DNA of 26,831 nt from a virus. Made by a program: the position numbers and the translations under genes. Each line of letters opens with the position of its first letter. Position 1 is the first letter of the stretch. Below, piece by piece: positions 357 to 5,709 of this stretch. Location: positions 1 through 26,831 of the IMG/VR virus record IMGVR_UViG_3300017763_000150. One strand, 5' to 3'. The notes beneath the pieces were generated by a model, which saw nothing but the letters and a program-made list of their open reading frames with translations, made no database searches and was not told the origin of the DNA.

Positions 357-408
357 TGAATTGAAAAAGGGTTATGTATAAGTGCGGGGAACACTAGGTA
401 AGATATTC

Positions 409-430
409 CAACTCTACCCTCCAGAGTTGG
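409..430 (-). promoter_or_regulatory. Hairpin in psbA 5' leader
   Basis: In the psbA mRNA sense, CCAACTC (430-424) can pair with GAGTTGG (415-409), giving a 7-bp stem around a 8-base loop that contains GGAGG-like sequence. It lies about 50 nt upstream of the psbA start, too far for the purine run to act directly as its ribosome binding site. No U-run follows, so it is not a terminator. It may stabilise the transcript or influence translation; this is inference. Confidence 0.5.
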
Positions 431-522
431 TATGAAAGACTCTTGTTTAGACACGCTGTTTAGTCTTGGTGAGGCGTGTTAAGAAGCGTTAAGAAATGTG
501 TTGGTCTCTTAACTTGCTGACT

Positions 523-1006: not shown

Positions 1007-1196
1007 CAAATTTTCGGATCGTGCCCTTCTGACCAGACTCTTTCATGTATTTCCTTGCCTCTGATTGGGCATCGAACACCTTAGCAAACCTTTTGTCAGG
1101 GGACCAGGTGCTATGCGATACCAAGTATTCGATTTCTTTCTCATCAGTACGACGAGTTGCCACCCAGCGGGAGGTATTATTAGGATCTCTGGACAT
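999..1196 (-). CDS. Hypothetical protein, 65 aa
   Basis: A 65-aa soluble, charged protein starting MSRDPNNTSRW. It contains WVATRRTDEKEIEYLVSHS followed by a basic stretch ending in KGTIRKFVL. I do not recognise a family. It sits just after a terminator (1229-1267) and before the cell wall hydrolase, with no clear Shine-Dalgarno and no certain promoter of its own; a TTGACA at 1215-1210 lacks a matching -10. It may be expressed by read-through. The reading frame is intact, dense with charged residues and in the same direction as its neighbours, which supports it being real. Confidence 0.6.
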   Translation of the reverse strand: MSRDPNNTSRWVATRRTDEKEIEYLVSHSTWSPDKRFAKVFDAQSEARKYMKESGQKGTIRKFVL

Positions 1197-1228
1197 GATT
1201 TGATTCGCTTGTCAACATAATTATGTAT

Positions 1229-1267
1229 AAAAAAAAGGGACCTTCTGTTATGTGGCAGAGGTCCCTT
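1229..1267 (-). terminator. Rho-independent terminator after the hli/peroxiredoxin operon
   Basis: AAGGGACC (1235-1242) pairs with GGTCCCTT (1260-1267), and CTG/CAG extends the stem after one bulged base. The plus-strand A-run at 1229-1236 becomes a run of eight U on the minus-strand transcript. It lies 25 bases after the last stop of the operon (1292). Confidence 0.88.
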
Positions 1268-1291
1268 GCGGCGACGATATGAATCTATTTA

Positions 1292-1435
1292 TCAATTGGT
1301 AGGAACCACAATAGGTGTCATCATTCCGCCATCTCCACCACCATCATCACCATCATCAGATTGTTTTATTATGATCAGCATAAAGTTTGCTATCATAAAT
1401 CCAACTGTTAAGGCTAAGAAGTTAGGTGTATCCAT
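1292..1435 (-). CDS. Small membrane protein, 47 aa
   Basis: Starting at the ATG at 1435, the product begins MDTPNFLALTVGFMIANFML and has one hydrophobic helix (about residues 6-24), followed by a cytoplasmic or lumenal tail rich in Asp and Gly (DDGDDGGGDGG) and a hydrophobic end MMTPIVVPTN. The start codon shares one base with the stop codon of the 35-aa Hli gene upstream, so the two are probably translationally coupled. The longer in-frame version starting at 1513 overlaps most of that Hli gene and is not preferred. Function unknown; the coupling suggests a thylakoid membrane role together with the Hli protein. Confidence 0.6.
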   Translation of the reverse strand: MDTPNFLALTVGFMIANFMLIIIKQSDDGDDGGGDGGMMTPIVVPTN

Positions 1436-1542
1436 CACCAAATGCCAGGGATAATCTGACCCGTGGTTGCATAACTGCCCATAGCAGCGATGATTCCGAG
1501 CATTGCTGCCCAACCATTAATACGTTCTGCGTTTTCGTTCAT
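1435..1542 (-). CDS. hli: High-light-inducible protein, short form (35 aa)
   Basis: The product MNENAERINGWAAMLGIIAA plus GSYATTGQIIPGIW is a single-helix chlorophyll-binding Hli protein. The Glu and Asn of the conserved AERINGxxAMLG core, used for chlorophyll binding in this family, are present, as is the TGQIIPG end. The usual Arg after NG is absent here (NGWAAM). Hli proteins sit in the thylakoid membrane, bind chlorophyll and carotenoid and dissipate excess light energy. The start overlaps the previous ORF by four bases (ATGA) and the stop shares one base with the next start. It is one of two hli genes in this operon. Confidence 0.88.
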   Translation of the reverse strand: MNENAERINGWAAMLGIIAAMGSYATTGQIIPGIW

Positions 1543-3342: not shown

Positions 3343-3530
<188 letters not shown>

Positions 3531-5028: not shown

Positions 5029-5050
5029 AAAAGCACCCATAAGGGTGCTT
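5029..5050 (-). terminator. Rho-independent terminator after the DUF4278-like gene
   Basis: AAGCACCC (5031-5038) pairs with GGGTGCTT (5043-5050) across a four-base loop. In the minus direction a short UUUUC follows; in the plus direction the hairpin is followed by TTTG. It closes the riboswitch-peptide-DUF4278 unit. Confidence 0.75.
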
Positions 5051-5077
5051 TGTTATCATCTTAAGATATTTAAGATG

Positions 5078-5245
5078 CTATTTGGTGTAAGTACGACCAC
5101 GATAGCAGAAGGTGCCATGTGACTCCTTGTTCTCTACACAACGGGTAGAATACTCAACACCACGGTATGATGTGTGAGCAATCTGAGCATTGTGAAGACG
5201 TGCTGCTTTCTCAATTTGACCTTTGATCAAAGTAAGTGTGTTCAT
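5078..5245 (-). CDS. DUF4278-like small protein, 55 aa
   Basis: The product MNTLTLIKGQIEKAARLHNA followed by QIAHTSYRGVEYSTRCVENK and ESHGTFCYRGRTYTK has the paired YRGxxY patterns (SYRGVEY and CYRGRTY) that I associate with DUF4278, a small family common in cyanobacteria and their phages. Its biochemical role is unknown. A strong AGGAG Shine-Dalgarno precedes the ATG at 5245. It is the second gene behind the riboswitch-like leader and is followed by a terminator. The family name is from memory and was not checked. Confidence 0.75.
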   Translation of the reverse strand: MNTLTLIKGQIEKAARLHNAQIAHTSYRGVEYSTRCVENKESHGTFCYRGRTYTK

Positions 5246-5287
5246 GTGTTTTCTCCTGAAGTTAGGGTGGTTTATTCCCCCGTTCCT

Positions 5288-5455
5288 TCAGTCGTGTGCG
5301 TCCCAGTACCACTCACATTCGGGTGATGAGTCCTTAAGGGTCTCAATCAACTCAACTTTAATAGTATTATCAATATTACTATTCCTCTCAATCTTCAGCA
5401 TGATAGCATCAGTTTGAGTACAGGTGAGTGTTGTATAGAATAATAGTTCTAGCAT
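5288..5455 (-). CDS. Small protein (55 aa) downstream of a riboswitch-like leader
   Basis: ATG at 5455 gives MLELLFYTTLTCTQTDAIML followed by KIERNSNIDNTIKVELIETL and KDSSPECEWYWDAHD. The N-terminus is hydrophobic and could be a membrane anchor or a degenerate signal; the rest is acidic. The known Downstream-peptide RNA motif of picocyanobacteria and their phages is defined by lying in front of short ORFs of this kind, and the sequence before this ATG matches that RNA closely. The codons before the ATG are open for about 22 further codons (…DASKSRNGAVHP-M…) but offer no ATG, GTG or TTG start. No Shine-Dalgarno is seen. Function unknown. Confidence 0.75.
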   Translation of the reverse strand: MLELLFYTTLTCTQTDAIMLKIERNSNIDNTIKVELIETLKDSSPECEWYWDAHD

Positions 5456-5510
5456 GGGATGAACGGCTCCGTTCCGCGACTTACTTGCGTCCCCGAAGGG
5501 ATGAACGATG
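5456..5510 (-). promoter_or_regulatory. Glutamine riboswitch-like element (Downstream-peptide motif type)
   Basis: In the transcript sense CGUUC (5507-5503) pairs with GAACG (5474-5470) to form P1. Inside lies a CCC-UUCG-GGG hairpin (5500-5491), then the conserved-looking internal part GACGCAAGUAAGUCGCG. This strongly resembles the glnA/Downstream-peptide RNA class, which binds L-glutamine in cyanobacteria. A second CGUUC (5465-5461) right before the ATG can pair with the same GAACG, giving a competing hairpin, as expected for a switch controlling translation of the 55-aa peptide. A late promoter 25 bases upstream fits transcription of this leader. The match is from memory of the consensus; no covariance model was run. 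Confidence 0.75.
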
Positions 5511-5533
5511 ATGTGATGAATCCATCACAATAC

Positions 5534-5542
5534 TATTTATAG
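5534..5542 (-). promoter_or_regulatory. T4-type late promoter
   Basis: CTATAAATA on the minus strand is the T4-like late promoter core. It is preceded by TG, so TGCTATAAA could also act as a weak extended -10. It is 10-15 bases after the stop of the 51-aa ORF (5554) and just upstream of the riboswitch-like leader. Confidence 0.75.
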
Positions 5543-5553
5543 CACGGATTATT

Positions 5554-5709
5554 TTATTTGGTAGTTCGTGGTGATACATTACCAGATTTTCTCAATGCTT
5601 CTTTTTTAGCAGCAGCCCAGATCATATCTGTTACATCTGGACTCTGCTCATTACCTGCATCTAGCAGGTCATCATAAACTGAATCCAGCGAAGGTGTTTG
5701 CTTCGACAT
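5554..5709 (-). CDS. Hypothetical protein, 51 aa
   Basis: ATG at 5709 gives MSKQTPSLDSVYDDLLDAGN followed by EQSPDVTDMIWAAAKKEALR and a basic tail KSGNVSPRTTK. The gene overlaps the end of nrdB by 38 bases in another frame. An upstream in-frame start (5742) would overlap nrdB by 71 bases and is less likely. It is probably helical. Function unknown; its position next to nrdB may be only positional. Confidence 0.6.
   Translation of the reverse strand: MSKQTPSLDSVYDDLLDAGNEQSPDVTDMIWAAAKKEALRKSGNVSPRTTK

Follow-up and report, generated by a model that had tools for sequence, protein, structure and literature searches.

A small protein gene nested in a loop of a putative twin-core glutamine riboswitch is widespread in marine cyanobacterial phages

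Background

Comparative sequence analysis places a small protein gene inside a loop of a putative glutamine sensor, an arrangement that is widespread in the phages of marine cyanobacteria. In the window, i.e. the whole stretch of 26,831 nucleotides that was analysed, the glutamine-riboswitch-related element spans about 5509 to 5256 on the minus strand. We consider it likely to be a cyanophage glutamine riboswitch with a twin core and a small gene in the loop of its hairpin P2b, in which glutamine would free the SD of the gene behind the element and close the start of the peptide gene. On any one RNA, synthesis of the small protein and formation of the sensor fold are probably mutually exclusive. 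The anatomy of the element is well supported by the comparison of its relatives; the ligand, the role of the peptide and which of the two proteins rises with glutamine are what we infer.

Riboswitch aptamers are usually described as compact non-coding leaders, whereas the aptamer studied here is split by a gene. The known glutamine riboswitches are ON switches linked to DUF4278 genes (PMC6316151, PMC6698751), and the DUF4278 domain has been linked to the control of glutamine synthetase in the hosts (PMC6316151). Cyanophage matches to glnA RNA are already in print (PMC9964418, PMC10665884); Rfam scans list such phage RNAs for S-CREM1 (PMC9964418), S-H34 (PMC10665884) and Melnitz (tmRNA; PMC9004378).

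Results and Discussion

Covariance models and single-sequence folding

At curated thresholds, an Rfam scan of the window found no glutamine riboswitch. A permissive scan of 5040-5600 placed glutamine-I (glnA RNA, RF01739) first with 28.9 bits (E 3.4e-4; gathering value 35) and glutamine-II (Downstream-peptide RNA, RF01704) second with 22.7 bits (gathering value 33). The original prediction had proposed these two models as a check and the lack of a hit as its refutation; matches were thus obtained at permissive settings, and both missed their gathering values. Sub-threshold matches of this kind nevertheless made a good first lead, towards an element that is divergent or incomplete. Indeed, the RF01739 threshold was passed by none of 19 loci, nearly all of them with the ORF, while ORF-free relatives scored 35.3-43.6 bits, five of them passing over the outer span with an insert at P3 (L101 with 43.6 bits). 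The window stays below the curated threshold because the gene splits its aptamer, and as the ORF-free relatives pass, the absence of a covariance-model hit would be misleading as a refutation. The ORF-bearing form, which occurs across T4-like cyanophages, is thus missed by Rfam thresholds. Two other RNAs were reported in the window at curated thresholds, a PhotoRC-II RNA near its end (395-491, minus strand, 65.6 bits) and a tRNA gene (3343-3416, minus strand, 75 bits).

Folding of single sequences was uninformative, the 5' half of the element giving a z of -1.14. Left unconstrained, the window sequence favoured other structures at -72.4 kcal/mol; enforcing the core gave -61.9 kcal/mol, in a model that leaves out tertiary contacts and ligand.

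The complete RNA and its counterpart in the window

Among viral contigs, 200 relatives of the 55-aa peptide were found and 80 kept. Nearly all whose contig extends far enough carry the same 5' motif, which is also kept upstream of divergent peptide relatives; together with the permissive Rfam matches, this sets the motif apart from a chance resemblance. The earlier claim that a cyanophage carries a relative of the glutamine riboswitch was right. Scanning with a pattern of the 5' half led to ORF-free relatives that display the complete RNA. It opens with A (CGUUCAUC-P2a-GACGCAAGUA) and the P3 5' strand (AGUCG or AGCCGACN), continues with strand 1 (CGGAACGG) and B (CGUUCAUC-P2b-GACGCAAA), and ends with the P3 3' strand (CGACU or NGCCGACU), GAAG and strand 2 (GAACGG). 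In the window, this string is broken after B by an AUG, and GGGACGCACACGAC-UGA-AGGAACGG closes it at 5304-5280; since the conserved string resumes past the ORF, the 55-aa ORF lies inside hairpin P2b. The original prediction, by contrast, had a 5' leader in front of the peptide and let the element end at 5456, which leaves out half of the RNA. The idea that the 5' half forms an aptamer by itself was rejected, as a conserved 3' half lies past the ORF. In the 160 distinct full elements collected, P2b is short (22-37 nt) in 35 and long (150-205 nt) in 125.

All features described below lie on the minus strand of the window, as do the letters that had been named at the outset (late-promoter-like motif, CGUUC, UUCG hairpin, GAACG and second CGUUC). 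The T4-type late-promoter-like motif, TATAAATA (5541-5534), stands 5' of the RNA, and a perfect GUGAUG/CAUCAC hairpin (5528-5513) occurs between this motif and the riboswitch. Strand A, CGUUC (5507-5503), is the 5' strand of outer P1 and has its partner in strand 2, GAACG (5285-5281). It is followed by the P2a hairpin of the outer core, UCCC-UUCG-GGGA (5501-5490, with CCC-UUCG-GGG at 5500-5491), and by the segment GACGCAAGUAA (5491-5481). This segment holds C5487, paired over long range with G5280, and AAGUA (5486-5482), the 5' strand of a loop-E motif, which fits RF01739 and served as search anchor. The P3 5' strand AGUCG (5481-5477) then leads to the inner P1 hairpin (5474-5461), in which strand 1, GAACG (5474-5470), faces strand B, CGUUC (5465-5461), just 5' of the AUG; its loop is GAGC, with GGAG (5470-5467) as SD candidate.

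The P2b 5' strand UCCCA (5459-5455) takes in the A of the start codon of the 55-aa ORF (5455-5288) and pairs with UGGGA (5305-5301), which is itself coding (Trp-Asp codons). C5298 forms the inner long-range pair with G5469, and the P3 3' strand CGACU (5294-5290) is followed by GAAG (5289-5286), the loop-E 3' strand. The UGA stop of the ORF (5290-5288) falls within P3/loop E.

Covariation and the twin-core topology

Unguided, RNAalifold recovered both P1 helices, P2a and P2b from 26 ORF-free sequences (alignment A1), in which the full nested structure has 94.8% paired cells. Its covariation score is 0.252; shuffles gave 0.083 (0 of 500) and sliding the structure no more than 0.075, relatedness of the sequences being ignored here as in the Fisher values and the other association tests.

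Outer P1 is CGUUC/GAACG except in nine distinct elements, where A is CGUUU and its partner AAACG, and this variation is confined to one small clade; five rows with A as CGTTG are probably artefacts of a pattern that caught CGTTGA in the P2a loop (read for L143). Inner P1 switches jointly between GAACG/CGUUC and CAACG/CGUUG, with no mismatch in 201 elements. Changes on both sides were seen at every basal pair of P2a, and likewise at five of five basal pairs of P2b in the ORF-bearing elements, where the strands lie 150-205 nt apart and are paired in 93-100%. P3 covaries across the ORF; its pair 8 takes U-A, G-C and A-U forms in group II, which also has C-A and A-C mismatches. Loop E (AAGUA/GAAG) is invariant in alignment A1 but for GAAG/AAAG. 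Outer P1, P2a and P3, then, covary as the three-way junction P1/P2/P3 of RF01739.

C5487-G5280 is the equivalent of G23-C60 in the glutamine-I crystal, the long-range pair of the bound state (PMC5393176), with its identity swapped in most elements: it is C-G in 116 and G-C in 14 of 130 elements, and broken in none. The corresponding pair of glutamine-II is C19:G41 (PMC6698751). At the inner position, G-C (156) and C-G (2) leave two of 160 elements broken. Since long-range pairs are conserved in both halves, both cores look like glutamine-aptamer folds. Taken together, the comparative sequence evidence supports the helices, both long-range pairs and the position of the ORF, and describes the complete RNA as two glutamine-I-like cores set back to back with a common P3, where the inner core is a circular permutation.

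Tandem glnA RNAs are on record (PMC2864571), and the element might hold two ordinary glutamine aptamers in a row, one with a P1 of A and strand 1, the other with a P1 of B and strand 2. Rfam does score single tandem-style units (L093 with 38.6 and 39.6 bits, L107, L115 and L191), and because the P1 strands are identical in most sequences, nested and tandem topologies can both pair. We nevertheless hold this reading to be quite unlikely. Covariation links strand 1 to B alone and A to strand 2 alone, the long-range pairs of the tandem topology are broken in 14 of 130 elements for A/strand 1 and in 19 of 160 for B/strand 2, against 0 and 2 for the nested pairs, and no unit has a P3 of its own, P3 being common to both halves. 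The A-1/B-2 topology, scored at 0.221 against 0.252 in alignment A1, is contradicted by the orthogonal P1 changes and was rejected.

Very unlikely, in our estimate, is the reading of the original prediction, a glutamine-II leader controlling the 55-aa peptide. It can point to the sub-threshold RF01704 match (22.7 bits), to GCA and GGAACGG identities as in that family and to a possible pseudoknot of A with strand 1, but mismatches in the CGUUU and CAACG lineages disrupt this pairing, a conserved 3' half lies beyond the ORF, and at both host type-II loci that were read a DUF4278 gene follows the RNA immediately, with no nested ORF between them. Glutamine-II membership was accordingly rejected: the CGUUC/GGAACG pseudoknot is at odds with CGUUU/AAACG and CAACG/CGUUG, and its long-range pair is broken in 14 of 130 elements. 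Likewise, the P1 that had been drawn between 5507-5503 and 5474-5470 gives way to two helices, these strands covarying with 5285-5281 and 5465-5461, respectively. The second CGUUC beside the AUG does pair with GAACG as had been foreseen, but as a real helix (inner P1) and not as one arm of a competing switch.

Genes nested in the aptamer

In the twin-core element, a P2b ORF is present in 120 of 160 cases, with its start in or near the P2b strand, at a distance of 9-16 nt from where B begins, and an in-frame stop U(G/A)A after P3; the peptides measure 49-66 aa. Their C-terminal D-A-(N/H)-D corresponds to the RNA element itself, translated in frame. The window peptide matches phrog_504 (5e-25), and a Pfam search with it gave no match; its family shows a pN/pS of 0.23 in frame, against 0.89 and 2.1 out of frame, and two cysteines are invariant in alignment A2. 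Third positions of codons 51-55 are without any variation in the family.

Phage peptide families are known (phrog_504, phrog_6471), and the ORF could be an ordinary peptide gene that overlaps by chance with riboswitch-like repeats. We give this next to no credence. It is contradicted because covariation spans the ORF (P2b covaries across 150-205 nt), and frame, start and stop are placed alike in 120 of 160 elements, with synonymous sites frozen in codons 51-55. As a separate observation, third positions of codons 13-23 (window 5419-5387) are nearly invariant (0-0.17) among 46 distinct family members and codons 24-48 mostly vary more; an additional constraint at the RNA level is possible for this stretch.

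Other loops are occupied as well. An insert in P2a was found in 28 relatives, in 26 of which it is an ORF that begins directly behind CGUUCAUC and encodes 61-69 aa, and 19 of the 28 also have a P2b ORF. In L309 (2256-2834), the loop of inner P1, which joins strand 1 to B, carries a 192-aa ORF with a GIY-YIG-like motif by eye and no Pfam match, which is possibly a homing endonuclease gene in a riboswitch; inserts similar to it occur in L009, L311, L316, L317 and L319, L309 alone having been read through. The P2a loop of the twin aptamer in L073 encloses a gene for an HNH endonuclease (PF13392, 1e-10; 1057-1497, minus strand) in antisense orientation. Judging by the titles and abstracts of open-licence literature, we found no earlier description of ORFs inside aptamers.

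The downstream gene and the expression platform

In nearly all cases the gene behind the element is DUF4278-like. In the window, it encodes 55 aa (5245-5078), follows the SD AGGAG (5257-5253) and starts 42 nt after the peptide stop. Its product matches phrog_545 (4e-34) and, over the C-terminal half, PF14105 with 21.3 bits (E 3.4e-4), which is below the gathering value of 25.3 and therefore leads us to the label 'DUF4278-like'; downstream proteins of relatives scored 25.0 and 19.3 bits against PF14105, and a YRG motif is present in 143 of the 145 recovered. The link to a DUF4278-like gene that had been foreseen is thus confirmed, but it is this gene, and not the peptide gene, that holds the usual place of a riboswitch-controlled gene.

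The motif CUUYAGGAG follows 3' of strand 2, usually within 16-23 nt or about 41-48 nt, and CURAAG, i.e. the stop codon with the loop-E strand, can pair with its CUUYAG. The alternative anti-SD hairpin of the window (5291-5256) accordingly consists of an outer stem of CUGAAG (5291-5286) with CUUCAG (5261-5256) and an inner G-rich/C-rich stem, and the 3' region folded alone is predicted to adopt it at -15.8 kcal/mol. The second base of the stop codon and its anti-SD partner combine as A:U (46), G:C (44) and G:U (35), never as A:C: U is the sole partner of UAA stops (46 to 0), and a UGA stop faces either C (44) or U (35).

At the other end of the nested gene, GGAG in the inner P1 loop is found in 86 of 91 ORF-bearing elements of group I versus 0 of the 8 without an ORF, the pattern one would expect of an SD for the nested ORF; it is mostly absent from the ORF elements of group II. 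As to the timing of expression, action late in infection had been suggested from the promoter motif, which can hold at most for the window phage; most relatives have a sigma-70-like -10, usually 7-9 nt 5' of the first helix of the RNA. In L013, L020, L030, L058, L062, L063, L075, L100, L162, L193 and L248, and in most of L306-L322, the stretch from strand 2 to the SD of the next gene contains a further conserved leader element, ACGGAUC-hairpin-RAAGGUU.

Proposed mechanism

We propose that the outer core acts as a glutamine-I three-way junction, formed by outer P1, P2a and P3 with its loop E, and that the second, circularly permuted core (inner P1 hairpin, P2b and a long-range pair of its own) closes the far end of P3. 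L-glutamine, the presumed ligand, would stabilise the core, and the folded core would withdraw the CUGAAG strand from the anti-SD hairpin, so that AGGAG becomes exposed and the DUF4278-like protein is switched on. At the same time, the glutamine-folded core would close P2b over the start codon of the peptide. Without glutamine, P2b could open and peptide translation might start from the GGAG that lies in the loop of inner P1; a ribosome finishing at the UGA would sit on P3/loop E, and peptide translation would thereby open the aptamer. With the start codon in P2b and the stop codon in P3/loop E, aptamer folding and peptide translation would exclude each other. Phages may in this manner tie the expression of the DUF4278-like protein to glutamine.

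A ribosome finishing at the UGA, on the other hand, would itself disturb the anti-SD hairpin too. The regulated product could then be the ORF, whose translation opens the hairpin so that DUF4278 follows, with glutamine in a minor part. The stop codon does lie inside the anti-SD strand and covaries with it, stop and next start are 42 nt apart, and GGAG goes with the ORF in group I. We still regard such translation coupling as unlikely, given that ORF-free relatives retain the same platform and the full aptamer, and that no exception to the bound-state long-range pair occurs among the outer cores.

Returning to the ligand-dependent switch, we lean somewhat towards a more general proposal: that these RNAs form a riboswitch class whose core is interrupted by genes, with start and stop codons in core helices, where translation of the inner gene and ligand binding would compete on the same molecule and the RNA would thereby integrate the glutamine level with ribosome traffic. 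The scaffold could be loaded with different genes in different loops, including several peptide families and endonuclease-like genes. It offers a testable case both of competition between ligand sensing and translation within a single structure and of a back-to-back twin aptamer with a common helix.

Relation to known systems

Structured RNAs with an ORF in a peripheral loop are known from group I introns, which are catalytic and self-excising and carry homing-type genes. By contrast, the element described here would be a gene-control aptamer, and the start and stop codons of its ORF are part of its helices.

With glutamine-I (RF01739), it shares the three-way junction, loop E (AAGUA/GAAG), the long-range pair and the position upstream of a DUF4278 gene, and its ORF-free relatives pass the threshold of that family. 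It differs in having a second, circularly permuted core to close P3, an outer long-range pair that is mostly C-G, and a protein gene in P2b and/or P2a, the window remaining below threshold. Likenesses to glutamine-II (RF01704) are the CGCA and GGAACGG identities, a C-G long-range pair, the DUF4278 gene downstream and the ON switch (PMC6698751) that we also propose here, whereas the pseudoknot of A with strand 1 is unsupported and the two host loci read lack an inner ORF. The published glnA RNAs are phage-borne like the element and, in the accessible portions of these reports, are given as single Rfam matches; those portions of PMC9964418, PMC10665884 and PMC9004378 yielded no mention of a twin topology or an internal ORF.

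Occurrence

The window is a fragment of a T4-like cyanophage with nrdA, nrdB, the element, the DUF4278-like gene and transaldolase, and Syn33 has the same gene order. The nested peptide was found in 309 of 50,697 phage records, all names in the tally being those of cyanophages, and in the records examined these loci are annotated only as hypothetical proteins. Pattern scanning of 84,980 bacterial and archaeal genomes matched seven stretches; two of these were checked, both Prochlorococcus matches, and resemble T4-like cyanophage genomes. A host origin of the nested form was rejected, at least two of the seven stretches being cyanophage-like contigs. Finally, a record-wide search located the twin form without an ORF, ahead of a YRG gene, in cyanophage S-PM2, whose record is listed in the literature as a cyanophage homolog of RF01739 (PMC6806525).
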